DNA of 64,000 nt from assembly GCA_004299485.1 (NCBI GenBank), contig SCQP01000001.1, forward strand, positions 434,001 to 498,000, read 5' to 3'. The translations under genes were made by a program, and so were the position numbers. How positions within the stretch are numbered: the stretch's first letter is position 1; each line of letters starts with the position of its first letter. Below the pieces are notes generated by a model. That model was not told where the DNA came from and did no database searches. It was given only the letters and a program-made list of their open reading frames with translations. The stretch is from Acidobacteriota bacterium (lineage in GTDB: Bacteria > Acidobacteriota > Terriglobia > Terriglobales > SCQP01). Below, in pieces: positions 7,176-22,179 of the stretch.

Positions 7176-8198
7176 GTGCGACAGACGATTACAGCGGCAG
7201 TTTTCATCATCCTCGGAATGGCGGCGGCGAGTTTTGCCGGCGCGCAAGTGCTCACGGAACGGACGCTGGCCACGCCGTCGCCAAGCGAGGCTGCGCCTGA
7301 AGCCACTCCCACCACGTTGTGGGGCAGCGCGGCGACGGCGGATCCGGTCGGTGCGGGCGATCTGCTGGATGTGCGCGTTTTCGGGCAGCCGCAGTTGAGC
7401 GGCAGCCTGCGGGTGGCGGCGGATGGGGTGATCGCACCACCGTTTCTGAACAGCCTTCCGGTGGCGGGCAAAACCCCGTTGGCGATTCAAGCCGAGCTGG
7501 CGAACGCCTACAGCACGCTGCTGAAGCATCCACTGGTCAGCGTGCGGCTGCTGCAGAACAACAGCCGCAAAGTAAGCATCAACGGCGTAGTGCCGCGGCC
7601 GGGGGTATACGCCTTCAGCGGCGAACTCAGCCTGTTGCAGGCGCTGGCGATGGCGGGCGGGGTGGATCCCTCCAAGGCGAGCACCAGGATTCTGCTCTTT
7701 CACCAGCCGCCGGTGACGATGCGCAAGGGGGAGGGCGGCAAGCTGATCTACACCGCCAACAGCGTGCTGCAGACGATTGACATCGCCCGCATTGGCACCG
7801 ACCCGGCGCTGGACCAGCTCCTTGAGCCCGGCGACGTGATTGATGTGCAGCCGGTGCGGCAGGTGTACCTGTCGGGGGATGTGCTGCATCCGGGGGCGGC
7901 GCCGCTGGTGCCCGACATGACGCTCGCCCAGCTCATCAGCTCCGCCGGCGGCTTTCTGCCGCAGGCAGATCACACCGTGCGGGTATTGCGGCTGCAGCCC
8001 AACGGCCAGCGGCGCACGCTCGTCGTCAATGTCGACGGGGCGCAACGGACGCAACAGCCGGAGTTGAAAATGGCGGCGGATGACATCGTGCTGGTGTCGG
8101 GCTCGGTGGTCCGCATGGCCGGACTGGAACTGCTTGACTTTTTCACCGCTTCCGGACGCTGGCGCGTGCAGCAAACGGTAGCCAATCACGTCTGGTAA
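7176..8198 (+). CDS. Polysaccharide export protein (Wza/OPX family)
   Basis: This 340-residue protein has an N-terminal signal peptide ending near SFAGAQ. A Poly_export (PES) domain follows at about 50-130 (GAGDLLDVRVFGQPQLSG ... VAADG), then SLBB-type repeats (KVSINGVVPRPGVYAF; QVYLSGDVLHPGAAPL). It forms the periplasmic/outer-membrane exit for polysaccharide together with the Wzz/kinase next door. Unlike classical Wza there is no lipobox cysteine after the signal peptide. Start GTG 7176 has GGGAGG 7 bases upstream. First gene of the plus-strand exopolysaccharide operon. Confidence 0.9.
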   Translation: MRQTITAAVFIILGMAAASFAGAQVLTERTLATPSPSEAAPEATPTTLWGSAATADPVGAGDLLDVRVFGQPQLSGSLRVAADGVIAPPFLNSLPVAGKTPLAIQAELANAYSTLLKHPLVSVRLLQNNSRKVSINGVVPRPGVYAFSGELSLLQALAMAGGVDPSKASTRILLFHQPPVTMRKGEGGKLIYTANSVLQTIDIARIGTDPALDQLLEPGDVIDVQPVRQVYLSGDVLHPGAAPLVPDMTLAQLISSAGGFLPQADHTVRVLRLQPNGQRRTLVVNVDGAQRTQQPELKMAADDIVLVSGSVVRMAGLELLDFFTASGRWRVQQTVANHVW

Positions 8199-8220: not shown

Positions 8221-10386
8221 ATGGCATACATCTATCCGTCGCGTGATCCCCAAAACTCTTCTTCCCCGCTCTATGAGCTGGAGCCGGCCCCGGGCGCCGA
8301 GCCGCGCCGCGGCCGCTTCCCCGACGCCCTCTATCGCCAGCGCTGGCTGGTGGTCGCGGTGGTGCTCGCCTGTGTGGCCATCGCCGCCGTGCTCAGCTTC
8401 ACCATCCGGCCCTACTACCAGGCCACGGCGGCGATCATCATCCGCCATCCCAATCTGCATCCGGCGCAGATCACGCCGCAGGACTACCCGCCCCCGGCGG
8501 ACCCGGACCGGGAGATGCAGACCGAGCTGACCGTGCTCGGCAGCCGCGCCGTTGCCCTGCCGGTGATCCGGCAACTGGAGCTGGAGCAGCGGGACGTGAC
8601 CATCGCCACCGCCCTGGCCAAAACGCGCCAGCATCTGGCGCAGAAGGGCAAGACGCTCGCCCCAGCCGATGCGGACGCCATCGCCTACGATATCTTTCAG
8701 AGCAAGCTCAAGGCGGTGCCCGACAAGCTGAGCGCCACCGTGCACGTCAGCTTCGGAGGCCACAATCCCGCCCTGGTGGCGGACGTGGTCAACGTCACGG
8801 ATCAGTCCTTCCTGGCCGAAACCCTGGCGGCGCGCGGCATCCAGGGGCAGACCGCAGGCCACTGGATGCAGGCGCAGGTCGCGCAGGCGGAAGCGCAACT
8901 GCACGCCGACGATGAGGCGGTGGCGGCGTTCCAGCAGCAGCACGCCTACGTGCCGCTGCTGGGCGCGGTCGCCGGCGCCAGCGGAGCCCAGAGCGCGCTG
9001 CTGGCGCGCCTCGCCGACGCCAACCACGCCTTCGGCGCCGCCCAGGCGGAGCGGATTGCCGATGCCGCGGCCCTGGCCAGCTATTCCGGCGCCGATGTCA
9101 CCACACTGCCGGCCGGGCTCAGCAATCCGGAAATTGCGCGGGCGGTGGAAAATCTGGGGGCGGCGCAGCAGCAGTTGGCGACGCTGGAAACCACCTACCA
9201 GCCCGCATTTCCGCTGGTGGTCGAAGCCCAGCAGCAGTTGAACGCCGCGCAGGAGAAATTGACCGGCCTGAAGACGCAGGTGATGGCGGGGCTGCGGCAG
9301 AAGCTGGCCGACAGCCAGCAGCAAGCAGACCATCTGCAGGCGCTGGTGGCGGAGTTGAACCATCAGGCGGCGGCGACGAGCGGGCTGGAAATGCGCTTCG
9401 CCGTGCTGCAGTCGCGCGCCAACGCCCAGCGCGAGCTGGTGGCCACGCTCCAGCAGAAGCTGGACGAGGTCAAGCTGGAGGCCAGCCTGCCGCCGAGCAA
9501 CATCCAGGTGCTCGATCCCGCGCTGCCGCCCTCCGCGCCTCTTTACCCCAACCTGAGGCTGGATTTGGCGCTCGGCCTGGGCCTGGGGGTGGTGTTCGGT
9601 ATCGGCGCCGCGCTGGCGCGCGAGCATTGGACGGGCGCGCTCACCGCAGGCGCGGAAGTGCAGCGCTCGCTGGGGCCGGCGCTGGCGCCGCTGGGCATGG
9701 TGGCGGAAACCAGCAAGCGGCGGCTGCCGGGCGGGGCGCGCGCCCTGCTGGAGAGCGGCAGCAGCGGCAGCGATCCCCAGGGCTATCGCAAGATTGCCGC
9801 CAATCTGGTGGCACGCTGCGGCGTGCCGCCACGCGCCATCCTGATCACCAGCGCCCAGGCCGGCGACGGCAAGACCACCAGCGTGTGCCAGCTCGGCCAC
9901 GCGCTGGCGCAAGCCGGCTGGCGCACGCTGCTGGTCGACGCGGATCTGTTCCGTCCTGGCTGCCACACCTTCTTTGGGGTAACCAATCTGACCGGCCTGG
10001 CGGCGGCGCAGACCGGCCGCAAGACCGCGCCCCTCAATCTGGCGCCGCACCTGGATCTGATGCCGGTCGAAGATGATGCCCCGCCGCTGCAGGTGCGGGC
10101 CATGGCCACCCTGCTGGAGCAATGGCGTGAGCACTATGACTATGTGCTGGTGGACTCGCCGCCGGGCCAGGTGAGCGGCGAAGCGGTGTTGCTGTCATCG
10201 CTGGTGGATGGAGTGCTCGTGGTGTTGCGCTGGGGACGGACGAAACGCAGCGAGGCCCAGCAGTTGTGCGAGGAGTTGGCCCGCGCACATGCCCCGCTGC
10301 TGGGCACCATTTTCAATCGTGCCGATCCTTCGGCCCCTTCCTATAAACCCTACCGGCGGCAGCCGCGCCCGGTCACAACCAACTAA
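8221..10386 (+). CDS. Polysaccharide co-polymerase with fused BY-type tyrosine kinase (Wzc-like)
   Basis: This 721-residue protein has a first membrane helix near residues 40-60 (WLVVAVVLACVAIAAVLSF), a large periplasmic coiled coil, and a second helix near 445-465. A cytoplasmic P-loop kinase domain follows: Walker A SAQAGDGKTTS near 560, Walker A' LLVDADLFRPG, Walker B YVLVDSPPG. Wzz-type proteins set polymer length, and the kinase cycles to control assembly. The C-terminal tyrosine cluster is reduced to two Tyr (SYKPYRR), so autophosphorylation capacity may be low. It sits between the OPX gene and a degenerate GGDEF gene. No partner phosphatase was found in the window. Confidence 0.9.
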   Translation: MAYIYPSRDPQNSSSPLYELEPAPGAEPRRGRFPDALYRQRWLVVAVVLACVAIAAVLSFTIRPYYQATAAIIIRHPNLHPAQITPQDYPPPADPDREMQTELTVLGSRAVALPVIRQLELEQRDVTIATALAKTRQHLAQKGKTLAPADADAIAYDIFQSKLKAVPDKLSATVHVSFGGHNPALVADVVNVTDQSFLAETLAARGIQGQTAGHWMQAQVAQAEAQLHADDEAVAAFQQQHAYVPLLGAVAGASGAQSALLARLADANHAFGAAQAERIADAAALASYSGADVTTLPAGLSNPEIARAVENLGAAQQQLATLETTYQPAFPLVVEAQQQLNAAQEKLTGLKTQVMAGLRQKLADSQQQADHLQALVAELNHQAAATSGLEMRFAVLQSRANAQRELVATLQQKLDEVKLEASLPPSNIQVLDPALPPSAPLYPNLRLDLALGLGLGVVFGIGAALAREHWTGALTAGAEVQRSLGPALAPLGMVAETSKRRLPGGARALLESGSSGSDPQGYRKIAANLVARCGVPPRAILITSAQAGDGKTTSVCQLGHALAQAGWRTLLVDADLFRPGCHTFFGVTNLTGLAAAQTGRKTAPLNLAPHLDLMPVEDDAPPLQVRAMATLLEQWREHYDYVLVDSPPGQVSGEAVLLSSLVDGVLVVLRWGRTKRSEAQQLCEELARAHAPLLGTIFNRADPSAPSYKPYRRQPRPVTTN

Positions 10387-10389
10387 ATT

Positions 10390-10794
10390 ATGGCGCTCCT
10401 CCACCGTCCGATCGCGGCACTGGGGCTGCCGCGCGGCATCCTCCCCAATCGGCGCGCGGCCAACGCCGCCCTGCTGCGGGTCTTCAGCCGCGCCCGGCGC
10501 CACGGCCACGCGCTGCTGCTACTGCGCGTAGCCGGCGAAGGCGGCATGCCGCTGCCGGCGGCGTTTCTTGAAGCCGTAGCGGCGGAAATCCGCATCGGCG
10601 ATCTGGCCTGGTGCGAGCCCGGCGCTGAACTGCTGCTCTTGCTGGAGGACACCGAAGAGGGCGCGGCGGTAGCGGTACGGCTGCGCGAGCGCGCCGCCGT
10701 ACACGGCCTGGCACTGCGGCTGCATCAGGCGCAGTTTCCACGCCAGAGTCTGACGCTGGAGGCGCTGCTGACGGAGGCGGGATGGCGAGCCTAG
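10390..10794 (+). CDS. Degenerate GGDEF-like domain protein
   Basis: This 134-residue protein starts 3 bp after the kinase gene. Its order of segments follows a diguanylate cyclase domain: ALLRVFSRARRHGHALLLLRV (helix and strand 1), EIRIGDLAWCEPGAELLLLLEDT where a GGDEF domain has R-x2-D-x4-R-x-GGEEF-x-LLLP, AVAVRLRERA, then LRLHQAQFPRQSLTLEALLTEAG where active enzymes have the SIGVA-FP-DG-T-LL-A strand and helix. The GGDEF signature is replaced by CEPGAEL and metal-binding acids are missing, so it cannot be catalytic. It may bind nucleotide or a partner protein. The fold assignment is by eye. Confidence 0.5.
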   Translation: MALLHRPIAALGLPRGILPNRRAANAALLRVFSRARRHGHALLLLRVAGEGGMPLPAAFLEAVAAEIRIGDLAWCEPGAELLLLLEDTEEGAAVAVRLRERAAVHGLALRLHQAQFPRQSLTLEALLTEAGWRA

Positions 10795-10849
10795 AGCGGA
10801 ATCAGACCCGCTATAGCCCAGCCAGCCGTAGCGCCTGCGGCTTTGACAC
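10791..10849 (-). repeat. Partial copy of palindromic repeat family A
   Basis: This 59-base stretch aligns without gaps to the reverse complement of the 22270-22385 element at about 45 of 59 positions, including a shared block GCCTGCGGCTTTGACAC. It begins at the stop codon of the GGDEF-like gene. The second half of the element is missing here. Confidence 0.7.
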
Positions 10850-11000
10850 GCTCAGCGCACCGGCGGCGGGACGGCCACGGCTGCCCGCCCGGCCGGCGGC
10901 GATTTCCTTTCCCCGCTGGTGCCGGTGCGAACGCCTGCGCCGGCGGGCGCTGGGGCGGCGCTGCTGTGGCCTCAGCCGGGGAGAACGGCACGCCAAGCGC

Positions 11001-11576
11001 ATGCTGGACCTGCTGCTCTGCCTGCTGCTGGGCCTGCCGGCGGCGATCCTCGTCGGCCTGGCGGCGTGCGCAGTGCGCTGGGACTCGCCCGGAGCGGCAC
11101 TGTTTGCGCAGTGGCGGGTCGGCGCGCACGGGCGGCGCTTCCGCCTTTGGAAGCTGCGCACCATGGTGGCGAACGCTGGCGCGCTGAAAGGGCAACTGAC
11201 TCATCTCAACGAGTTGCCCTGGCCGGACTTTAAGATCACCAACGATCCGCGCATCACCGGCGTAGGCCGCTGGCTGCGCCGCAGCAGCCTCGACGAGTTG
11301 CCACAGTTGTGGAATGTCTGGCGCGGGGAGATGAGCTTCGTGGGGCCACGGCCGTCGAGTTTTGGCCTGGAACATTACCGGCTGTGGCACACCGAGCGGC
11401 TGGCGTTGCCGCCCGGCATCACCGGCCTGTGGCAGATCACCGCCCGCGCGCGCTGTGATTTCGACCAGCGCCTGCGGCTGGATCTCGCTTACCTGCGGTC
11501 GTGGCGGCTGCGACTGGATCTGGCGATTCTGGCGGCCACGCTGGCGGTGGTGTGCCGCGGCAAAGGAGCGCGATAA
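11001..11576 (+). CDS. Undecaprenyl-phosphate sugar transferase (bacterial sugar transferase family)
   Basis: The core has one membrane helix (LLLCLLLGLPAAILVGLAA), then DSPGAALFAQWRVGAHGRRF, KLRTM, NDPRITGVGRWLRRSSLDELPQLWNVWRGEMSFVGPRP and PPGITGLWQI. These are the hallmark motifs of phosphoglycosyl transferases (WcaJ/PglC type) that load the first sugar phosphate onto undecaprenyl phosphate at the inner membrane. I use ATG 11001 (191 residues). The frame is open back to ATG 10782, but that 73-residue extension runs through repeat A and is low in plausible structure. The AKR just before Met74 of the long form resembles family N-termini, so the start is uncertain. Confidence 0.85.
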   Translation: MLDLLLCLLLGLPAAILVGLAACAVRWDSPGAALFAQWRVGAHGRRFRLWKLRTMVANAGALKGQLTHLNELPWPDFKITNDPRITGVGRWLRRSSLDELPQLWNVWRGEMSFVGPRPSSFGLEHYRLWHTERLALPPGITGLWQITARARCDFDQRLRLDLAYLRSWRLRLDLAILAATLAVVCRGKGAR

Positions 11577-11580
11577 AGCG

Positions 11581-13110
11581 ATGAGTACCTGGACCGACAA
11601 TTGGACGGGGCTGCCGGCGGCGCCCCGGAGCGCCCGGCCCTTCTGGGGCGGATTGGGCTGGTGGCTGCTGGCGCTGGGGGCCCTGGTGCCGGTGCTGGCC
11701 GCCATGCAGCGCTATCCGCAGTACATGGTCTGGATGGCGTTGGCGGTGCCGGCGTTCGGGTTGGCGATGCTGGCGGTGCTGTACCGGCCGGCCTGGGGCG
11801 CGTGCGCGCTGATCCTTTTGGCGTACTGGAACGCCAGCGACGTAGTGACCACGACCTTCGGCTTCAGTTGGCTGCTGCGGCTGGCCATCGCCGGTGTGCT
11901 GGCGGCGGGGCTGCTCACGTGGCTGCTGGAGTCGCCGCCGCGGCGGCTGCGCTGGCCCCTGCTGGGTCCGCTTTTGCTCTGGGGCGGCGCGCAGGTGGTC
12001 TGCACCGCGACCGCGATCAGTCCGGGCATCGCAGCGGCGCAATTGCTGGAGTACGTCAAGGTGCTGCTGGTGTTTTATCTGGTGGTGAATCTGCTGCCTT
12101 CGCCGCGCTGGTGGCGCTGGGGCGTGGATGCGCTCCTGTCCGCCGTGGGCCTGCTGGCGCTGCCGGCCGTCTACCAGGGGCTGACGGGCAGCCGCTTCGT
12201 CTTCTGGGGCTTTGGCTCGATGGAGTTCTCAGCGACGGCGCCCGGGCAGTTTGGCTGGCGTCTGGGCGGGGCGATGGGAGATCCCAACTTCCTGGCAATG
12301 GTGCTGGTGGCGGCGCTGCCGCTGGCGGCGTACCAGGCGTTGGAGCCGCGCGCCCACTGGTTCCGCAGGCTTTGGGCGCTGGGAGTGGGCGGGCTGGCGC
12401 TGGCGGCGATGCTGTTTACCTACTCGCGCGGCGCCTTCCTGGGCCTGGGGCTGCTGGTGGTGGTGCTGCTGGTGGCACACCCCCAGCGCAAATGGGTGCT
12501 CACGGCCACGGTGGTGGGCGTGCTGCTGGCAAGCGCATTAGCGCCGCAGCAGCTTTGGGGCCGGCTGGCGACGCTGGTGAAAAACTCTCTCGGCGCCCAG
12601 GAGCAGCAGATGACCGACTCCAGCTTCCGCAGCCGGCGGCACGAGATGCTGACCGGCCTGGATATGTTTATTCACCATCCCCTGGTCGGCGTCGGGCCGG
12701 GGAACTTCGAAACCGCGTATTTGAAGTACTCGGCCATGGTCGGCCTGAGCGGGGACAACGCGGTCCGCGACCCCCATAGCCTCTACACCCAGTTACTGGC
12801 CGAAACCGGTCTGGTGGGCTTGGCGGCCTTTGTCTTTCTTCTCGTCTCCGCCTTCCGGCTGCTGGAGCGCGGCCGGCGGCGCGCGCGCCGCCTGGGGGCG
12901 GCAGCCTTTGCCCGCTTGCTGGCCGCCTGCGAGCTGGCGCTGGCGGTGTATCTGACGTGCAGTGTCTTTCTTCATGACGCCTACTTCCGCCACTTCTTCC
13001 TGTTGCTCGCGCTCGGCGTGCTTGGCGCCGCGCTCGCGCTCGACAGGCAGCCGCGGCGGCAGCCGGCGCCCGCAGCGAGCAACCCGGAACCGGTACAAGG
13101 AGGCATATAA
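11581..13110 (+). CDS. O-antigen ligase/polymerase family protein (Wzy-like)
   Basis: This 509-residue integral membrane protein has about ten or more hydrophobic helices. The Wzy_C features are present: GAMGDPNFLAM, LFTYSRGAFLG, then a large external loop with SRRHEMLTGLDMF, HPLVGVGPGNFE and DPHSLYTQLLAETGLVG. Such proteins polymerise or ligate lipid-linked repeat units on the periplasmic face. ATG 11581 follows the sugar transferase stop by 4 bp. Position between initiating transferase and glycosyltransferases supports the polymerase role. Confidence 0.85.
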   Translation: MSTWTDNWTGLPAAPRSARPFWGGLGWWLLALGALVPVLAAMQRYPQYMVWMALAVPAFGLAMLAVLYRPAWGACALILLAYWNASDVVTTTFGFSWLLRLAIAGVLAAGLLTWLLESPPRRLRWPLLGPLLLWGGAQVVCTATAISPGIAAAQLLEYVKVLLVFYLVVNLLPSPRWWRWGVDALLSAVGLLALPAVYQGLTGSRFVFWGFGSMEFSATAPGQFGWRLGGAMGDPNFLAMVLVAALPLAAYQALEPRAHWFRRLWALGVGGLALAAMLFTYSRGAFLGLGLLVVVLLVAHPQRKWVLTATVVGVLLASALAPQQLWGRLATLVKNSLGAQEQQMTDSSFRSRRHEMLTGLDMFIHHPLVGVGPGNFETAYLKYSAMVGLSGDNAVRDPHSLYTQLLAETGLVGLAAFVFLLVSAFRLLERGRRRARRLGAAAFARLLAACELALAVYLTCSVFLHDAYFRHFFLLLALGVLGAALALDRQPRRQPAPAASNPEPVQGGI

Positions 13111-13114
13111 ATCC

Positions 13115-13924
13115 ATGAAACACAGCATTGCCATCGTGGGCTTAGGGTGGGTAGGCCGCGCCATGCACCAGGAATTTCCTGACGCGGCCATCTACGACGA
13201 ACCGCTGCAGTTAGGCACGCGCGAGGCCGTCAACGCCTGCGATGTGGCCTTCGTCTGCGTGCCCACCCCCAACCCCGGGCGCGGGGCCCTCGACACCAGT
13301 ATTGTTGAGCGCGTCATCGCCTGGCTGGAGACGCCCCTGATCGTGCTGCGCTCGACGGTCAACCCCGGCTTCACCGACCTGATGCGGCAGCGCTATGGGC
13401 GGCGGATTGTGTTTCAGCCCGAGTATCTGGGCGAGAGCGTGGCGCATCCGCTGATGCATCTGCGGGAACGCACCTTTCTGATCCTCGGGGGCGAGCCCGC
13501 CGACCGGCGCGAAGCCATCGAAGTGTATCAGCAGGTCTTCAACGCCAGTGTCCGCATCCGGCAGACCGACGCCCTCACGGCCGAGCTAATCAAGCTGGCG
13601 GAAAACCGCGCCATTGCGCACCGTGTGGCCGAAGCGCAGGAGCTGTACGATCTGTGCGAAGCCGCCGGGGTGGACTACTACACCGTGCGCGAGGGGGTCT
13701 ATCAGGACGATCCCCGCATGTCCCCCTACTGGACCTTCGTGTACCCGCAGGAGCGCGGCTTCGACTCCAAGTGCATTCCCAAAGACGTCTACGCCCTCAC
13801 CGCCTATGCGCGGCAGCTGCACGCACCACTGGAAGTGACCGAGGCGCTGCTGGAGCGCAATGAGCGCTACCTGCGGCGGTTGACGGTAGCGGCTGCGCCG
13901 GCGCAGTCGGAGCTCGCAAGCTGA
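13115..13924 (+). CDS. Short UDP-glucose/GDP-mannose dehydrogenase-like protein
   Basis: This 269-residue protein starts with a Rossmann glycine motif (VGLGWVG) at residues 7-13. It has the central dehydrogenase helix around LIKLAENRAIAHRVAEAQEL and the catalytic-cysteine motif FDSKCIPKD near 230. These match UDP-sugar dehydrogenases that oxidise a nucleotide sugar to its uronic acid with NAD. The normal C-terminal UDP-binding domain (about 120 residues) is absent: a typical enzyme has 400 or more residues. The start at 13115 follows AAGGAGG. Either the truncated form works alone or the substrate is not a standard UDP-sugar. Confidence 0.75.
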   Translation: MKHSIAIVGLGWVGRAMHQEFPDAAIYDEPLQLGTREAVNACDVAFVCVPTPNPGRGALDTSIVERVIAWLETPLIVLRSTVNPGFTDLMRQRYGRRIVFQPEYLGESVAHPLMHLRERTFLILGGEPADRREAIEVYQQVFNASVRIRQTDALTAELIKLAENRAIAHRVAEAQELYDLCEAAGVDYYTVREGVYQDDPRMSPYWTFVYPQERGFDSKCIPKDVYALTAYARQLHAPLEVTEALLERNERYLRRLTVAAAPAQSELAS

Positions 13925-13935
13925 GCGGTGCGGCC

Positions 13936-15057
13936 ATGGCACCGCCGCGCATCGTCTGGATTCTGGACCAGTTAGGCCTGGGCGGCGCGGAACGTCTGGC
14001 GTTGCGCTTTGCCGCAGCGCCGCTGCCCTGGCGCATTGAGCTGGTGGCGTTGCAGGCGGCCGCGCCGGGCGCGCTGGAGCGGCTCTGGGGCGGGCAGATG
14101 GCGCCGCTCGCCGGACGAGTGCATCACGTGGCGATGCAGGGCCTGGGCGACGTAGGTGGCTGGTGGCGGCTGCGGCAGTTGCTGGCAGCCTGGCAGCCGC
14201 TGCTGGTGCACACCCACTTGCGCTATGCCACGGTGTGGGGCGGCGCGGCGGCGCGCTGGCTGGGGCGTCCCTACGTGGCCACGGTGCATCTGGGTCCGCG
14301 GCCGGACCGGAGCCGGCGGCAGCGGCTGGTGGCGGCCTGCGAGCGCTTCAGCCGGCGGCATGCGGCGCGGGTGATCTATGTCAGCGAGGCGCAAAGGCGG
14401 TCCTGGGGCGCGGTGGCCGCGCGCGAGCGGGCGGTGATTGTGGGCAACGGCGTTGGTCTGCCGCCGGCGGCGCCGCAGGCGCACCCCGGGCAGCGGCGCC
14501 GTCTGGGCCTGCCGCAGGCGGCGACGGTGTTTACCACCGTCGCCATGGTGCATGCCGCTAAGGGCTGGCGCACCTGGCTGGCGGCGGTCGAGCAGATCGC
14601 ACCCGCCCGGCCGGGCGCGCGCTTTGTGTGGGTGGGAGGCGGCGAGGAATGGGAGCTGCTGCGCGCCGCGGCGGCGGCATCCCCGGCCGCAAGCCAAATC
14701 CGGTTGCCGGGCGTGTCGAGTGAGGTCGCCGCCTGGCTCAGCGTCAGCGACGTGTTTCTGTTTCCCTCGCAGGAGGAAGCCCAGCCGACGGCCGTGATGG
14801 AAGCGATGGCAGCCGGTCTGCCTATCATCGCCACCCGTCTGCCGGCAATCGAGGAGGTCCTGGACGGCTGCGGCCTGCTGGTTCCGGTCGATGATGCAGA
14901 CGCCCTGGCGCAGGCAGCGCTGGCCTGGAGCGACTCCGGCAACCGCGTGGCCGCAGCAGCAGCCGCGGCGGCGCGGCAGCGGGCCGCCGGGCCGCTGAGC
15001 GAAACCCGTTGGTGTGAGCGCATGGTGCAGCTTTATGAAGAAGTCCTTGCCGCCTGA
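13936..15057 (+). CDS. Glycosyltransferase, GT4 family
   Basis: This 373-residue GT-B enzyme starts with a GLGGAERL segment near residue 16 (donor-side loop). A central linker has VIYVSEAQRRSWG and VIVGNGV. The C-terminal Rossmann domain carries PSQEEAQPTAVMEAMAAGLPII, the E-x7-E signature of GT4 retaining enzymes. It adds one sugar to the lipid-linked repeat unit on the cytoplasmic face. Specific donor unknown. It overlaps the next gene by 23 bp. Confidence 0.87.
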   Translation: MAPPRIVWILDQLGLGGAERLALRFAAAPLPWRIELVALQAAAPGALERLWGGQMAPLAGRVHHVAMQGLGDVGGWWRLRQLLAAWQPLLVHTHLRYATVWGGAAARWLGRPYVATVHLGPRPDRSRRQRLVAACERFSRRHAARVIYVSEAQRRSWGAVAARERAVIVGNGVGLPPAAPQAHPGQRRRLGLPQAATVFTTVAMVHAAKGWRTWLAAVEQIAPARPGARFVWVGGGEEWELLRAAAAASPAASQIRLPGVSSEVAAWLSVSDVFLFPSQEEAQPTAVMEAMAAGLPIIATRLPAIEEVLDGCGLLVPVDDADALAQAALAWSDSGNRVAAAAAAAARQRAAGPLSETRWCERMVQLYEEVLAA

Positions 15058-16372
15058 AGCCGGGCGGCGCACCGTGCTCCTGGTCGAGTTCTTCTCCCGC
15101 GGCGGGGTGATGCACTACAGCCTGCAGTTGGCGCGCGCGCTGGCAGGAGAAGCCGCGCCGGATGTCAGCATCACGCTGCTGACGGCCCGGCATGCGGAGG
15201 CGGCGGCGCCCGTGGGCGTGCGGCTGCTGCCGTGGCTGGCGACCTGGAACCCGCACCGCGCGCCGCGCTATTTGCCTCGCCGGCTGGTGCGGGCTGCGCG
15301 CGGCCTGCGCTACGTCTGGGTCTGGATGCAAGTGCTGGCCGCGGTACGGCGCGAGCAGCCAGCGTTCATCCTGATGACCGACCTGGAGCATCGCTGCGAC
15401 GGCTGGTTTGCCCGGAAGCTGCGGCGCTGGTGCCGGCGGCAGCAGCCGCCGGTCCCGCTCGCCGACATCTGGCACAACGTCGAAGCATTCGAGCGCCACC
15501 AAAAGGGAAAACTGCAGCGGCAGCTGCACTGGCGGATTCGGCTGGCGCAGGTGTTCGACACGGTCTTTGTTCATGGGACGACGCTGCAGGCGCAGTTTAC
15601 CGAGCTGACCGGACGGGGAGCCTGTGCCATTCCGCACGGCAATCTGGCCTGGATGGCGGAGCAAGCTGGCCCGGACCCCGGCTTGAACCAGCGGCTTCGG
15701 CTCGCGCCACAGCAGCCGCTGGCGCTACTCTTCGGCTCACTCAGCGCCTATAAAGGCGTTGAGGTCCTGCTGGCGGCCATGGCCGCGCTGACTGCCGCCA
15801 GCCGTCCTTTGCTGCTGATCGCCGGCATGCCCACGGCGGTCTCGCAGCTCCAGCGTTGGCACGACTATGTACGGCAGCAGGGGCTGGAGCCTTGGGTGCG
15901 CTGGGACACGCGCTACATTCCTTTGCCCGAGGTCGCCTGGTACTTTCGCCGCGCCGATTGGGTGGTGCTTCCCTACCGCGCCATCGCGCAAAGTGGCGTG
16001 GCCCATGCGGCGCTGACGTTTGGCCGCCCTCTACTGGTCACGGCGGTGGGCGGGCTGCCGGAGCTCATCGACGGCAATGGAATCCTCGTGCCGGCGAATG
16101 ATCCTGCGGCTTTGGCGCAGGCGATGGAGCGCATGGCCGCCGCACCGCAATTGCGCGAACAGTGGGGACGGCGATCGTTGGAACTGGCGTACTCGCGCCA
16201 TGCCTGGGGTCCGATTGCCCACACCGTGCTGGCGGCCGCAGCGCCGCAGTTGCTGCCGCATCCGCCAACGATCCCGGTCGAGACCAGGAATGATCCGGCG
16301 GGTGCGGCGGTTCACAGTTGCGCCTCAACTCCGGAGCGCGTGCGCGGGGATGCCCACGGACTATACCTATGA
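15035..16372 (+). CDS. Glycosyltransferase, GT4-like
   Basis: This 445-residue GT-B type enzyme begins FFSRGGVMHYSLQLARAL. Its C-terminal domain contains LFGSLSAYKGVEVLLAAM, a YIPLPEVAWYFRRADWVVLPYR segment and GRPLLVTAVGGLPELI, as in GT4 enzymes, although the E-x7-E motif is replaced by AIAQSGVAHAALTFG. ATG 15035 is used; GTG 15014 is possible. The gene overlaps its upstream neighbour and ends in ATGA with the next one, which indicates translational coupling. The last 30 residues are a non-conserved tail. Confidence 0.8.
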   Translation: MKKSLPPEAGRRTVLLVEFFSRGGVMHYSLQLARALAGEAAPDVSITLLTARHAEAAAPVGVRLLPWLATWNPHRAPRYLPRRLVRAARGLRYVWVWMQVLAAVRREQPAFILMTDLEHRCDGWFARKLRRWCRRQQPPVPLADIWHNVEAFERHQKGKLQRQLHWRIRLAQVFDTVFVHGTTLQAQFTELTGRGACAIPHGNLAWMAEQAGPDPGLNQRLRLAPQQPLALLFGSLSAYKGVEVLLAAMAALTAASRPLLLIAGMPTAVSQLQRWHDYVRQQGLEPWVRWDTRYIPLPEVAWYFRRADWVVLPYRAIAQSGVAHAALTFGRPLLVTAVGGLPELIDGNGILVPANDPAALAQAMERMAAAPQLREQWGRRSLELAYSRHAWGPIAHTVLAAAAPQLLPHPPTIPVETRNDPAGAAVHSCASTPERVRGDAHGLYL

Positions 16373-17589
16373 AGGTCGGCTACATTTTTTCGCGCTATCT
16401 CCATCTCAGCGAAACCTTCATCCTGCGCGAGATGTGGGAGTTGGAACAGCAGGGGCACGAAGTTGCCATTTATCCACTGCTGCGCCATGGCGGCAAGCGC
16501 CATCCGCGCGTGGCGCAGTTGCGCGCGCCTGTGCGCTGGACGCCCTGGGCGCCTCTCGCCAGTCACGCCTACTGGCTCCGGCGGCGGCCGCGCACCTACC
16601 TGCGCACGCTGGCCGAAGTGTTGTGGCGCAACCGCAGCGACGGCAATCTCTGGCGGGGTGCGGTGGCCTTTTGGGGCAAGGCGGTGGGGATCGCGGAAGC
16701 CATGCAAAAAGCGGGCATCGAGCAAGTGCATGCGCACTATGCCACCCATCCGGCGTTGGTCGCCTACATTGTGCACCGGCTGACGGGCCTGCCGTACAGC
16801 TTCACCGTGCATGCGCACGATATTTTCTGCCATCGCGCCATGCTGCCGGAAAAGATGCGCGCCGCCGAGTTCGTGATCGCCATCAGCGGCTATAACCGCA
16901 ACCTGCTGGAGCAGGCGGTAGCCCCGCCGCGCCCGCCCATCCACGTCGTCCATTGCGGCATCGAGTGGAGTGCGTATGCGGCGCTCGGAGCCGCACGGCC
17001 GGCAGCCGAGCCGGGCGGGTTGCGGCTGCTGAGCGTGGGCACACTGGAAGTCAGCAAAGGCCACCGCTATCTGGTCGAGGCCTGCGCGCAACTGCGGCAA
17101 CAGGAGATTCCCTTCCAGTGCCGGATTGCCGGCGGCGGAAAAGAATACACCCGCCTCCGCCGCCAGATTCAGGCGCTCGGCTTGGCGCCGCAGGTGGAGT
17201 TGAGCGGGGCGGCGACGGAAGAGGACGTGATGCAGGCGTTGAGCTGGGCGAACGTGTTCGTGCTGCCGAGCGTGCGGCTGCGGAACGGCAAGATGGAGGG
17301 TATTCCAGTGGCGCTGATGGAAGCGATGGCGTCGGCGCTGCCGGTGGTGGCCAGCCGCTTATCCGGCATCCCCGAGCTGGTGCTGCATGGCCGTACCGGC
17401 TTTCTGGTCGGCGAGCGCGACGTGGCGGCGCTGGCGGGAGCGCTGACTCGCCTGCAGGATGCGCGGTTGCGCAAGCGCATGGGCGCAGCGGCGAGCCGCA
17501 GCGTGCGTGCCGGCTTCGAACTGTCGGCTAACGTGGCGCGCCTGGCCGGGTTGTGGGCGGCGGCGCACACGCGGGAGGTGGCGGCATGA
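16369..17589 (+). CDS. Glycosyltransferase, GT4 family (WcaL/EpsF-like)
   Basis: This 406-residue protein begins GYIFSRYLHLSETFILREMWELE, typical of colanic acid-type transferases. It has HAHYATHPALVAYI and SFTVHAHDIF in the N-domain, SVGTLEVSKGHRYLVEA at the donor site, and PSVRLRNGKMEGIPVALMEAMA (E-x7-E). ATG 16369 overlaps the previous stop as ATGA. It is part of the operon that builds the exopolysaccharide repeat unit. Donor and acceptor cannot be read from sequence. Confidence 0.88.
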   Translation: MKVGYIFSRYLHLSETFILREMWELEQQGHEVAIYPLLRHGGKRHPRVAQLRAPVRWTPWAPLASHAYWLRRRPRTYLRTLAEVLWRNRSDGNLWRGAVAFWGKAVGIAEAMQKAGIEQVHAHYATHPALVAYIVHRLTGLPYSFTVHAHDIFCHRAMLPEKMRAAEFVIAISGYNRNLLEQAVAPPRPPIHVVHCGIEWSAYAALGAARPAAEPGGLRLLSVGTLEVSKGHRYLVEACAQLRQQEIPFQCRIAGGGKEYTRLRRQIQALGLAPQVELSGAATEEDVMQALSWANVFVLPSVRLRNGKMEGIPVALMEAMASALPVVASRLSGIPELVLHGRTGFLVGERDVAALAGALTRLQDARLRKRMGAAASRSVRAGFELSANVARLAGLWAAAHTREVAA

Positions 17590-20294
17590 CGGGCATGGGG
17601 TTGCTTGGAGCCACCCTACTGCTACTGGGACTGGCGGCGCTGGCCATGATCTGGCTCGGCTATCCGCTGCTGATTGCGGCAGGGGCGCGCTGGCGGCCGT
17701 GGCGCTGGCGCCTGACGCCGCTCGAGGCTCCGGCCGAGGCCTGGCCGCGGCTGAGCGTGATCATCGCCGCGCACAACGAAGCGGCGCAGATTCAGACCCG
17801 CATCCGGAACCTGATCGAACAGGACTACCCGGCGGCGAAGCTGGAAATCATTGTGAGCGAGGATGGCTCCAGCGATGACACCGCCGCGCAGGCCCGGGCG
17901 GCAGCCGATGGCTCTCCGGTGCCGGTGCGGGTACTGAGCGAACCGCAACGGGGAGGCAAGGCGGCGGCGCTGAACCGTGCCGCTGCCGTGGCCCACGGCG
18001 AGGTGCTGGTCTTCACCGACGCGAACAATATGTTTGCCCCGCAGGCGCTGCGGCACCTGGCAGCACCGTTTGCCGACAGCCGCGTCGGGGCGGTGACGGG
18101 CCCCAAAACGGTAGCTGAAAACTGCGGCGTGGGCGGCGGCGAGGGAGTGTACTGGCGCTACGAAGGCTGGCTCGTCCGCCAGGAATCGGCCAGCGGCGGG
18201 GCGGCGGCAGCCTATGGGGAAGGGCTGGCGCTGCGCCGGGAGCTGTTCCGGCCGGTTCCGACGAACCACTTGACCAATGACGATCTGTTCCTGGCGATGG
18301 CGGTGTTGGCGCAGAAGTGGCGCCTGGTGGCGGCGCCGGACGCGCGCTCCTGGGAATTGGGCGCGGCCGATGCCGGTTCGGAATGGGAACGGCGGCGGCG
18401 CATGGCGGGTGGTCACTGGGAGGCGCTGGTGGCGGCAAGGCGTGAAGTGGGACACATGCGGGCGGCCGACGCCTTCCGGGTCTGCTTTCACGAGGTGCTG
18501 CGGCAGGCGTCCGCGGTCTGGCTGGTGCTGGCGCTGGCCGGGGCCGTGCTGGTGTGGCTGGCGCCGCCGGCGGCTGGGAGCGTGCGGGCACTGGCCGGGT
18601 TGGTGCTGGCGGGCTGGGGCTGGGTAGCGGCGGTGGGGCTGCTGCGCCGCTGGGGCGTGCGGCTGGGGCGCGGCGAGGCGCCCTACTTTTTTTGCCTGGC
18701 GCTGGCGGCGGCCGCCGTAGGCGCCTGGCGCAACTGGCGGCATAGCGAGTCGAAATACTGGCGCAAAGCGGGGCGGGCGCAGGCTGGGGCGTCAGCCGCC
18801 GGGCGGCGGGCGCTGCCTGCCCAGGGTGGTATCCTCAACGGCCTGTTCTGGGCCTCGAGTTCATTCCTGCTGGGCAAGTTGTTTTCCTTTGGCTCCATCG
18901 TCGTGCTGGCACGACTGCTCGTGCCCAAGGCGTTCGGCGAAGTCGCGATTGCGATCTCGATTATCGGGGTACTAGAAGTTCTGGGCACACTCGGCCTGAC
19001 CAGTGCGCTGGTGTTTGAAGAGCAGGCTGTCGATGCCGCGGCCAATCTCTGCTTTTGGATCACGATTGGCACCTCATGCCTCACCATGGCCGCCGCCTGG
19101 TGGCTGGCCCCGCTGCTGGCGGCATTTTTCCATGAGCCGGTGCTGCGGCTGATGCTGCGTGCCCTGACGATCTATTTGCCCATCACGGCGCTGGGCAGTA
19201 CGCACGATTTTCTGTTACGCCGCCGGCTTTCGTTTCGCACCAAGCTGCTGCCGGATTTGGGGCAGTCTTCCGTCAAGGGCATAGCAGCGATTTCCATGGC
19301 GCTCGTGGGCTTCGGCGCCTGGAGCCTGATCTGGGGACAAGTGCTGGGCGCGGTTGCGGCCACGGCGATTCTGTGGATGGTGGTGCGCTGGCGGCCTCAC
19401 CGCGGCCTGGACCGCGTGGTGTTTTGGCGCATGGTGCACTTCGCCAAGCACATCTATTTCCTCGATGGTTCCAGCCTGCTGCTGCTCAATCTGGATACCT
19501 TCACCATTGGGCGCATGCTCACCGATACCCTGGTGGGCTATTACACGCTGGCCTTCCGGCTGCCGGACGTGGTATTGGTCAGCGTTCTGAACGTGATCGC
19601 GCGGGTGACGTTTCCCGGCTTCAGCCGCCTGCAGAACGATCTGCCGCGCCTGCGGCGCACGCTGCTCGACACGGCACGCTACACCGCGCTGCTCACCTTG
19701 CCGATGGCGGCAGGGATGGGGATGCTGGCGCCGGCGGTGGTGCTGGTCCTGTACGGCAGGCATTGGGGTCCCGCAGTGGCGGTGGTCGAAGTGCTGGCGT
19801 TATGGGGCGGGATCCGCTGCCTGATGCACCCGTTCGGCGACGGCTATAAGGCCATCGGGCGGCCGGATGTGCTTACCCGCACTACCGTCCTCTGGTGGAT
19901 CGTGCTGCCGCCGTCGCTCATCCTGGGCGCGCACTGGGGCGGCATCGTCGGGGTGGCGTGGGGACACGTGGTAACACGGACCGCCATGTCGCTGCTGCAC
20001 GTCTATCTGGTAGCCAAGTATCTGAAGATTTCGCCGGCGGCGCTGCTGCGCTGTTTTGCGCCGGCCTTTGAGAGCAGCGCCATCATGGCGGCGGCGCTGT
20101 GGGTCGCACGGCCGCTGGTGGGCGGCTGGGGACCGCGCCTGGAATTGGCCGCCATGGTGCCCTTCGGCGCCGTCGTCTATGGCGCCGCAGTGCTGCTGTT
20201 GCATCCGCAGATCGCGCGGGCCGCACTCGCGCGGGTCCGGCGCCGGAGTATCCCGGCCACGGCGGCAGCTTCGGCAACGGAGCTGACGGCGTGA
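17586..20294 (+). CDS. Fusion of GT2 glycosyltransferase and Wzx-type flippase
   Basis: This is a single 902-residue frame. Residues about 1-400 form a membrane-anchored GT2 enzyme: LSVIIAAHNEA, SEDGSSDDT (metal-binding), VFTDANNMF, NDDLF, and two C-terminal helices. After ESKYWRKAGRAQAG and a roughly 30-residue Ala/Gly linker comes a polysaccharide flippase (PST/Wzx, MATE-like) with about 12-14 helices: GLFWASSSFLLGKLFSFGSIVVLARLL, GFGAWSLIWGQVLG, LDTFTIGRMLT, YTLAFRLPD. One polypeptide would add a sugar and then help move the lipid-linked unit across the membrane. No good internal start exists near the linker. ATGA overlap upstream, GTGA downstream. Confidence 0.85.
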   Translation: MTGMGLLGATLLLLGLAALAMIWLGYPLLIAAGARWRPWRWRLTPLEAPAEAWPRLSVIIAAHNEAAQIQTRIRNLIEQDYPAAKLEIIVSEDGSSDDTAAQARAAADGSPVPVRVLSEPQRGGKAAALNRAAAVAHGEVLVFTDANNMFAPQALRHLAAPFADSRVGAVTGPKTVAENCGVGGGEGVYWRYEGWLVRQESASGGAAAAYGEGLALRRELFRPVPTNHLTNDDLFLAMAVLAQKWRLVAAPDARSWELGAADAGSEWERRRRMAGGHWEALVAARREVGHMRAADAFRVCFHEVLRQASAVWLVLALAGAVLVWLAPPAAGSVRALAGLVLAGWGWVAAVGLLRRWGVRLGRGEAPYFFCLALAAAAVGAWRNWRHSESKYWRKAGRAQAGASAAGRRALPAQGGILNGLFWASSSFLLGKLFSFGSIVVLARLLVPKAFGEVAIAISIIGVLEVLGTLGLTSALVFEEQAVDAAANLCFWITIGTSCLTMAAAWWLAPLLAAFFHEPVLRLMLRALTIYLPITALGSTHDFLLRRRLSFRTKLLPDLGQSSVKGIAAISMALVGFGAWSLIWGQVLGAVAATAILWMVVRWRPHRGLDRVVFWRMVHFAKHIYFLDGSSLLLLNLDTFTIGRMLTDTLVGYYTLAFRLPDVVLVSVLNVIARVTFPGFSRLQNDLPRLRRTLLDTARYTALLTLPMAAGMGMLAPAVVLVLYGRHWGPAVAVVEVLALWGGIRCLMHPFGDGYKAIGRPDVLTRTTVLWWIVLPPSLILGAHWGGIVGVAWGHVVTRTAMSLLHVYLVAKYLKISPAALLRCFAPAFESSAIMAAALWVARPLVGGWGPRLELAAMVPFGAVVYGAAVLLLHPQIARAALARVRRRSIPATAAASATELTA

Positions 20295-21370
20295 GCGCCC
20301 CCTCGCAGACGGGCCTCGCCTCCGCCATCATCAGCGGTACGCTGCCGGCAATGGAGCGCGGTTGGAAACAGTTGCAGCGCAGCACCGGCCCGGCGAATCC
20401 GTTTTTGAGCTGGGAATGGCAAAGTGCCTGGGCAGCCGCCATGGGGTATCCGGCCGTTGTCGTGGCGGCGCCGTTTGTCGATGGCCGCTTCGCCGGGTTG
20501 CTGGCCTTGCAGCGCCGGCAGCGCCGGGGGTTGGGGCAACTGGAGTTTCTGGGCCAGGACAGCGGCGCCGACGAGCTGGATTGCCTGCTACACCCAGAGG
20601 CGCCGCCGGAAACCGCAGCGCGTCTGTTACAGGCGGCGCTCAATCAGCGGCACTGGCGCCTATTGCGGCTGGAATCGGCCGATGCGGCCGGCGCGCTGGC
20701 CGGGCTCTTTCCCGGCGAGCGCCGGGAGCGTGCGGCGCTGCTGCCCACGCTGACCCTGCCCGGCAGTCTGGACGTGCTGCTCGCCGGACATAGCGCCAAC
20801 TTCCGTTCGGAGGTGCGGCGGCGGCGGCGGCGCTTCGCCGCCCACTGGCCTCAGGCGCTGGTCGAGTGCGCGGACACACCCAGAGCCATTCAGCGGGCTC
20901 TGGAGCACCTGTTTCGCCTCCACAACCTGCGCCGGGCCCAGAAGGACGGCACCGGCATTTTCGAATCCTCGCGCATTCGTACCTTCCATTTGCGCGCGGC
21001 GGGGGCGCTCGCGGCGGAGGGCGTGGCCCGAGTGTACCTGCTGCGCAGCGGCGACGCCGTTCTGGCAGCCCTCTACGGGTTCGAAGCCGGCACAGCCCCG
21101 GCACGGCGCTTCCTGTATTTCCAAAGCGGATTTGATCCTGCCGTTACCCCCCTCAGTCCGGGCACCGTGCTGCTCAGCGCGGTCATCGAAGACTGCATGG
21201 CGCGAGGCTTGCAGCGCTTTGATTTTCTGCGCGGCGAAGAGCCGTATAAGTTCCGCTGGACCTGCGAGGGGCATGCGAGTGTTCGCCTCCTGGGCAGCCG
21301 GGGCGCAGCCGGAGCCGTCTGGATGCGCCTGCGCCGGGAAAAACAGCGGCTGCAAAGGCTGGCGGCATGA
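20291..21370 (+). CDS. GNAT/FemAB-like acyltransferase (CelD/BcsL-like)
   Basis: This 359-residue protein matches the Acetyltransf_6 pattern: NPFLSWEWQSAW near the start, GQDSGADELDCLL, a basic stretch RSEVRRRRRRF, then LYGFEAG, YFQSGFDPAVTPLSPGTVLLSAVIEDC and GLQRFDFLRGEEPYKFRW. These proteins usually transfer acyl groups to polysaccharides or amino groups. GTG 20291 overlaps the previous stop (GTGA). In this operon it probably acylates or otherwise decorates the sugar repeat. Substrate unknown. Confidence 0.8.
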   Translation: MSAPSQTGLASAIISGTLPAMERGWKQLQRSTGPANPFLSWEWQSAWAAAMGYPAVVVAAPFVDGRFAGLLALQRRQRRGLGQLEFLGQDSGADELDCLLHPEAPPETAARLLQAALNQRHWRLLRLESADAAGALAGLFPGERRERAALLPTLTLPGSLDVLLAGHSANFRSEVRRRRRRFAAHWPQALVECADTPRAIQRALEHLFRLHNLRRAQKDGTGIFESSRIRTFHLRAAGALAAEGVARVYLLRSGDAVLAALYGFEAGTAPARRFLYFQSGFDPAVTPLSPGTVLLSAVIEDCMARGLQRFDFLRGEEPYKFRWTCEGHASVRLLGSRGAAGAVWMRLRREKQRLQRLAA

Positions 21371-22179
21371 TCGCCCAACTCAGTCATGCGGTTCCCGAAC
21401 CGGTATGGCGCACCGCCGGCGCCTGGCGCCGCGCCCGCTGGCCCTACTGCATCGTCGCCTTTCACCGCATCAGCGACGACGGTAAGGACCTTGCCTATCC
21501 GCCGGCTGCGTTCGCTGCGCTCTGCGGCTACTGGCGTGATCACTATGAGGTTCTGCCACTCGAGCGCCTGTTGGCACGGTTGACGCATGGGGACGCGCTG
21601 CGGCATCCGTCGGTGTGCATCACCTTTGATGATGGCTACGCCGATAACGCCGAAGTCGCCGCCGAAATCCTCGACCGCCTCGATCTGAGCGCCACCTTTT
21701 TCATCACCAGCGGCGCCATCGGCGAACCCAACCGCTTCCCCTGGGATCAGCACCTGGCGCCGCCGCCGCGACTGATGCGCTGGGAGCAGGTACACGCCCT
21801 GCGTGCCGCCGGCTTTGGCATCGGTTCGCACACCGTCACCCATCCGCGTTTGAGCGAACTGCGCCAGACCGAGTTGGTGGAACAGTTAACCGCCTCGCGC
21901 GCGCATCTGGAGAAGGAACTGGGCGAACCGGTGCTGGATTTTGCTTATCCCTTCGGCCGGCTCGGCGACTGCGATGCGGCGGCCCGGGCCGCGGTGCATG
22001 CGGCAGGCTACCGCTGCTGCCTGGCCTGCCACGGCGGACTGGTGAGCGCCCACGATTCGCCTTATCAGCTCAATCGCATCCCAGTGAGTCCGCGCTGGCA
22101 CGCGACCCCCCGCGCCTGGGCACGCGCCTACGCCAAACAGCTTTTCGCGTCTAAACGCGGCAGCGTGGAGACGCTCTGA
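21367..22179 (+). CDS. Polysaccharide deacetylase (CE4/NodB domain)
   Basis: This 270-residue enzyme has the NodB homology motifs TFDDGYADN near residue 95 (catalytic base and metal Asp), SHTVTHPRLSEL near 157 (metal His), and FAYPFGR. It removes acetyl groups from amino sugars; in exopolysaccharide operons this usually changes surface charge. No signal peptide is obvious, so it may act in the cytoplasm or be membrane-associated. ATG 21367 overlaps the previous stop (ATGA). Its stop codon lies inside a diverged copy of repeat B, so the operon appears to end here. Confidence 0.87.
   Translation: MIAQLSHAVPEPVWRTAGAWRRARWPYCIVAFHRISDDGKDLAYPPAAFAALCGYWRDHYEVLPLERLLARLTHGDALRHPSVCITFDDGYADNAEVAAEILDRLDLSATFFITSGAIGEPNRFPWDQHLAPPPRLMRWEQVHALRAAGFGIGSHTVTHPRLSELRQTELVEQLTASRAHLEKELGEPVLDFAYPFGRLGDCDAAARAAVHAAGYRCCLACHGGLVSAHDSPYQLNRIPVSPRWHATPRAWARAYAKQLFASKRGSVETL

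Follow-up and report, generated by a model that had tools for sequence, protein, structure and literature searches.

A predicted GT2 glycosyltransferase and Wzx-type flippase joined in one conserved reading frame in a family of Acidobacteriota

We analysed a 64,000-nucleotide stretch of the genome of an Acidobacteriota bacterium (GCA_004299485.1, contig SCQP01000001.1, positions 434,001 to 498,000; hereafter the window), in which an earlier note had described an uninterrupted 902-codon frame joining a membrane glycosyltransferase of family GT2 to a complete Wzx-type polysaccharide flippase. Our analysis confirmed the observation of this GT2-flippase fusion. The frame at 17586-20294 on the plus strand does encode 902 residues followed by a stop, with no internal stop. 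The presence of one chain for sugar addition and for flipping suggests a physical coupling between the making of an exopolysaccharide and its export. The parts of the gene, in window positions, are as follows.

17586..20294, plus strand: fused GT2-Wzx gene (Pfam domains of both kinds; stop-free translation; 10 of the 14 family genomes with such a frame)
17586..18740, plus strand: GT2 half, about residues 1-385, with an N-terminal membrane helix, a GT-A catalytic domain and C-terminal membrane/interface helices (Pfam; PcManGT fold match)
17862..18404, plus strand: conserved GT2 motif span, D93-G-S, D145-A-N/S-N, D232-D233 and R269-R270-x-R272-M/I (alignment of ten fused proteins)
18741..18830, plus strand: linker, about residues 386-415, variable in length and sequence (low predicted local distance difference test score, pLDDT; ten-protein alignment)
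18831..20258, plus strand: Wzx/MurJ-type flippase half, about residues 416-891 (PF13440; MurJ and WzxE fold matches)

The window DNA has a GC content of 65%, and since long open frames are frequent in such DNA, the length of the frame alone is little proof of a fusion; an antisense frame of 373 residues overlies the glycosyltransferase half. Judged from the sequences, the reality of the fused frame is settled by the profile scores and by conservation among relatives. In both halves, third codon positions varied more than first and second positions in all five pairs compared. The ATG at 17586 is immediately preceded by the purine-rich GGGAGGTGG and shares 4 bases with the 3' end of the GT4 gene upstream; an alternative GTG start 33 bases upstream would yield 913 residues.

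The N-terminal half matched PF00535 at residues 57-174 (E = 6.5e-24, 85.2 bits against a cut-off of 23.3) and PF13641 at residues 54-263 (73 bits against 27). D93, D145, D232, D233 and the motif arginines were invariant in all ten aligned fused proteins, and the D93, D145, D232-D233 and R269-R272 stretches correspond to conserved GT2 motifs. An AlphaFold model was built from alignment A2 (53 rows) and reached a mean pLDDT of 92.8 and a predicted template modelling score (pTM) of 0.69, with pLDDT below 50 at residues 401-411 and 891-902. Residues 6-387 of the model aligned with the Pyrobaculum calidifontis GT2 enzyme PcManGT (PDB 6yv7) at Z 37.1 over 339 residues and 26% identity, the best fold match by far, and a profile of A2 also matched PcManGT by sequence (E = 2.9e-48). 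The whole glycosyltransferase half aligns, membrane helices included; PcManGT, however, is archaeal and stand-alone, whereas the half studied here is fused to a flippase. By its Pfam matches, intact motifs and modelled fold, the GT2 half is predicted to be a membrane GT2 glycosyltransferase of the PcManGT type.

The C-terminal half matched PF13440 at residues 440-731 (E = 2.9e-67, 227.4 bits against a cut-off of 23) and PF01943 at residues 417-683 (91.9 bits against 28.2). Model residues 417-883 aligned with MurJ (6nc6) at Z 33.8 over 443 residues, and residues 419-814 with WzxE (9g9p) at Z 32.7 over 392 residues. The flippase half is complete in the model, with a predicted multidrug/oligosaccharidyl-lipid/polysaccharide (MOP) fold along its entire length. 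The Pfam matches and the long MurJ alignment thus bear out the claim that a GT2 enzyme and a complete Wzx-type flippase share a single frame. With the MOP flippases of the Wzx/MurJ kind (PF13440; WzxE, MurJ, WzxC, TuaB) the fusion has Pfam family, fold and a Wzx/Wzy-type cluster in common. It differs from them in the glycosyltransferase that precedes the flippase, and in scoring below the NCBIfam cut-offs for WzxC (NF007773, 195.6 bits against 273) and TuaB (159.1 bits against 580). To our knowledge, the known Wzx proteins are separate chains.

The earlier note had also proposed an Ala/Gly linker between the halves and the absence of a good internal start near it. The linker was found as described, at about residues 386-415, being rich in Ala and Gly and also in Arg. 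Its length, measured over residues 382-417, ranged from 32 to 103 residues across the ten proteins, and its identity was 20-44%, against 52-75% for the halves (five pairs compared). The model predicted the mutual placement of the two halves without confidence. Codon offsets for internal starts were counted from the Gly of GLFW (residue 419). Between codons -60 and +12 the window holds no in-frame ATG, GTG or TTG, so that the second statement stands for the usual start codons; the nearest in-frame starts are GTG at -61 and TTG at +13 (within the first flippase helix), and a CTG lies in frame at -9.

We followed the fusion through a sample of 14 genomes of the window's family (f1). A frame ran across the GT2-flippase junction in 10 of the 14, and ten full-length fused proteins were obtained from nine genomes (G004 has two). 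These ten constitute alignment A1, in which the relatives are 42-59% identical to the window protein. The G012 frame passes the junction and then stops at a contig end; in G001 the halves lie at two contig ends, leaving the junction unreadable; and the genus g3 genomes G006, G011 and G013 gave no fused match. Family orthologues are therefore not always two genes, a doubt that the note had raised, and the fusion is kept in every family genome with a readable junction. A second doubt was that an error of sequencing or assembly had deleted a stop between two genes. The assemblies are drafts, the window's own genome being in 22 contigs and the named relatives being metagenome-assembled genomes, which would leave room for such errors. 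The junction is nevertheless open in 11 frames of 10 genomes, ten of them besides the window's, with linkers that differ in length and sequence. A stop codon lost through sequencing error was thus ruled out for practical purposes, and we give this explanation a negligible probability. The G004 draft contains two differing fused copies (L036 2325-5081 and L037 7737-10829), either a paralogue or the product of a mixed bin.

With the A1 profile as query, we searched two samples, one of 399 genomes from the class and one of 298 genomes from a class of Chloroflexota. Unbroken matches spanning both halves occurred in the first sample only in G000, G005, G007 and G009, all of family f1; the fifth family genome in it, G006, had none. 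In G374, of the same class, the two halves were also matched, but by two genes that stand in the same order 117 bases apart. The only match listed over both halves in the Chloroflexota sample, G408 (locus L061), has a stop inside. When proteins covering both domains were mapped in this way, same-order fusions were found only in the window's family within the two samples. A full-length match with three stops in G076 was rejected, inspection having revealed only a glycosyltransferase gene at the locus. A GTDB scan with A1, which may miss more distant fusions, kept 80 loci among the matches listed; nine of them held a frame with both domains, all in Acidobacteria records. A genome-contig scan with the single sequence returned no matches, unlike the scan with A1. 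In a plasmid collection, the DNA search gave 3 matches covering 5% of the query, and the protein search gave 261 records, none reaching 80% coverage.

The nearest relatives among the matches listed are separate genes. Four Chloroflexota loci (L061, L062, L063 and L091) have adjoining GT2 and wzx genes, which lie 21, 21 and 27 bases apart in three of them and overlap by 4 bases in the other. These loci have both families in the same order as the fusion, but as two genes instead of one. Trees were computed by a quick method from 37 flippase rows and 33 glycosyltransferase rows, hand-picked from the loci (L015 was left out of the latter). The ten fused proteins formed a single clade in the trees of both halves, with a Shimodaira-Hasegawa-like approximate likelihood ratio test (SH-aLRT) support of 100, and a single fusion event is therefore likely on the sequence data. 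This clade was nested in a wider, mostly Chloroflexota group that includes L061-L063 (support 99 for the flippase and 92 for the glycosyltransferase half), and G374 (L142) was distant in both trees. The L091 flippase fell inside the wider clade of the fused flippases and its GT2 elsewhere in the glycosyltransferase tree, so that the L091 pair may be an independent pair of neighbours. The simplest reading is one fusion of adjoining genes in the ancestor of the family, with possible lateral exchange with Chloroflexota. In the trees, most other Acidobacteriota rows were further from both halves than the Chloroflexota rows were, which may hint at such exchange.

To judge from its neighbours, the fused gene sits in a Wzx/Wzy exopolysaccharide cluster, where it is encoded alongside a priming transferase, Wzy and Wzz. 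The other genes, identified by Pfam scan where so marked, are listed below.

7176..8198, plus strand: Wza-like polysaccharide export protein (PF02563, SLBB)
8221..10386, plus strand: Wzz/tyrosine-kinase-like chain length protein (Pfam scan)
10782..11576, plus strand: priming bacterial sugar transferase (PF02397; Pfam)
11575..13110, plus strand: Wzy-like polymerase/ligase (PF04932; Pfam)
13112-13924: short UDP-glucose/GDP-mannose dehydrogenase-like gene, 270 residues (Pfam)
13936..16372, plus strand: two more GT4 glycosyltransferases (Pfam)
16363..17589, plus strand: GT4 glycosyltransferase directly upstream of the fusion (open reading frames, Pfam)
20285..21370, plus strand: GNAT/FemAB-like protein (PF13480) directly downstream of the fusion, its start picked within a longer frame
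21367..22179, plus strand: polysaccharide deacetylase (PF01522; Pfam)

A GT4 gene also lies upstream of the fusion in those family loci that extend that far, and family loci repeat the series GT4, fusion, FemAB, deacetylase up to the contig limits. The short dehydrogenase comprises part of the N-terminal domain and the central domain, with no match to the C-terminal domain, and no relative of it was listed in the fused family loci read. The window's own genome (98.8% complete) has one strong PF13440 match, which is the fusion, and one weak match, which is MurJ as identified by PF03023 (317.8 bits). As the sole PF13440 match besides MurJ, and in view of its cluster context, the fused flippase is very probably the repeat-unit flippase of the window's exopolysaccharide cluster.

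As to function, we lean towards a bifunctional protein, one that would add a sugar to a lipid-linked unit and then flip it, the tether keeping the enzyme beside its cognate flippase. Both activities would reside in one inner-membrane protein of the Wzx/Wzy exopolysaccharide pathway. The N-terminal GT2 half would add one sugar to the lipid-linked repeat unit at the cytoplasmic face, and the C-terminal half, as the cognate flippase, would bring the unit to the periplasmic face and so make it available to the Wzy polymerase. A flexible cytoplasmic linker would tether the halves, set a 1:1 ratio and hold the enzyme next to the flippase, and extended units would be flipped promptly rather than tying up the lipid carrier. 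According to one report, unflipped units may sequester undecaprenyl phosphate and so make flippase loss lethal (PMC11706664); the tether could limit this lock-up of the carrier. Direct handover of the substrate from GT2 to flippase is plausible.

The side of the membrane on which the linker lies hinges on helix 361-384. The loop ahead of it (353-362) is net positive in all ten fused proteins and the linker that follows it in nine of ten. From these net positive flanks we infer a helix that stays on one side of the membrane; three crossing helices and a cytoplasmic linker would then remain. Such a linker agrees with the three membrane helices described for PcManGT (PMC10569066) and with the description of both WzxE ends as cytoplasmic (PMC11706664).

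Several points weigh against the bifunctional reading. The pTM of 0.69 and the disordered linker give no sign, in the model, of a fixed contact between the halves. Helix 361-384 is moderately hydrophobic, and if it does span the membrane, the linker would lie on the periplasmic side and the argument from topology would no longer hold. According to PMC8993221, the mannosyltransferase function of PcManGT is a proposal unconfirmed by experiment. The stand-alone GT2 gene of L061-L063 comes directly after a priming transferase gene, so that the step may be an early one; this gene order fits an early step as well as the last. Finally, the chemistry does not need the fusion, since elsewhere the relatives occur as separate proteins.

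A further possibility, which we hold to be doubtful, is that the fusion forms a minimal natural unit of assembly and export in which the flippase is gated by the GT2 domain attached to it. The lipid-linked unit would pass inside the protein from the active site to the flippase entrance, and the enzyme, instead of the flippase pocket, would decide which lipid-linked sugars are exported. On this view, fusions in the two orders would have arisen convergently, as remedies for units flipped too early or for a locked-up carrier. Substrate selection by MOP flippases is called enigmatic, many of them being broadly specific, in PMC11759038. In Rhizobium, two-hybrid tests gave contacts between a terminal glycosyltransferase and Wzx/Wzy proteins that the authors themselves regarded as ambiguous (PMC7589315). 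A flippase covalently tied to a glycosyltransferase amounts to a gene-fusion argument for joint action and provides a single-chain object for testing the coupling of synthesis and flipping.

The main rival to the bifunctional reading is that the halves are independent enzymes sharing a chain, through a near-neutral fusion, or one that affects only ratio or insertion, fixed once and leaving substrate flow unaffected. It is in line with the existence of separate neighbouring genes in the same order, with a linker that conserves neither sequence nor length, and with the absence of a predicted fixed contact between domains. However, the frame stays fused wherever the junction is readable despite the divergence of the proteins from that of the window, and opposite-order fusions arose elsewhere in the order. 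We regard this rival as possible, but on the unlikely side. It appears improbable that a free flippase is produced, whether in addition to the fused protein or in its place, through an internal start in the linker or cleavage of it. Five relatives do have start codons just ahead of the flippase (ATG at -8 in G002 and G004b, GTG at -8 in G005, ATG at -10 in G008, GTG at -10 in G009), with GGGAG just upstream of the ATG in G002; they are perhaps relics of a free flippase gene. These starts are nevertheless unconserved, being lacking in the window from -60 to +12 and in G003 before +1; the nearest are at -4/-3 in G010 and -3 in G012, and in G004a and G007 they lie elsewhere in the linker.

The least probable of these functional alternatives, to which we give very little credence, holds that the GT2 half is a synthase of the processive kind, like cellulose or hyaluronan synthase, and that the flippase half serves to export the polymer. 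Cellulose and hyaluronan synthases were among the fold matches of the GT half (Z 22-26), PgaC was among its NCBIfam matches, and the Chloroflexota loci L065 and L072 carry a related flippase joined to BcsB. Yet the small PcManGT was far the better fold match, and PgaC scored 86.9 bits, below its cut-off of 422.3. M or I replaces, in all ten fused proteins, the W of the QxxRW motif of processive synthases. The cluster also has the genes expected where a polymer is assembled unit by unit (priming transferase, Wzy and Wzz), and no BcsB turned up among those of its proteins that were scanned.

Of 298 genomes from the order, three have a single frame with the flippase first and a GT2 domain second (G057, 907 residues; G072, 878; G832, 894). 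Like the window fusion, these frames combine a PF13440 flippase with a GT2 domain; they differ in the order of the halves, in another GT2 type and, for the two tested, in a distant flippase branch. The flippase-first frames lie at L047 8634-11270 (878 residues), L048 8217-10940 (907) and L174 1960-4644 (894). Chloroflexota L065 1552-5379 and L072 7935-11801 (1275 and 1288 residues) join a PF13440 flippase to a BcsB domain. From the flippase-first GT2 fusions and the BcsB fusions it follows that flippases of the PF13440 family have been fused to polysaccharide-assembly partners more than once. BcsA-BcsB cellulose synthase fusions are known (PMC4443731) and likewise join a polysaccharide enzyme to its export partner; they differ in belonging to a synthase-dependent pathway without a lipid-linked repeat unit. 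A conserved same-order GT2-flippase fusion was not described in the titles and abstract starts that searches of open-licence literature listed, though automated architecture listings may exist. The component parts are thus known, and their conserved same-order combination is apparently new.

Elsewhere in the order, flippase and GT2 genes also occur as unfused neighbours, 58 bases apart in L176 and overlapping in L175, there with a deacetylase-GT2 gene. A polysaccharide deacetylase fused to GT2 lies beside a wzx gene at L172 1772-3676 and L175 2606-4597. L140 (690 residues) and L141 (754), candidates for another N-terminal partner, show no Pfam domain ahead of the flippase and are perhaps overlong frames. 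The 967-residue frame at L074 2098-5001 has its flippase at 487-956, with about 480 residues in front that lack a Pfam match. At L173 1807-5208, a 1133-residue frame carries a flippase and, after it, a weak match of the pectate-lyase/epimerase kind (PF12708, 28.7 bits).

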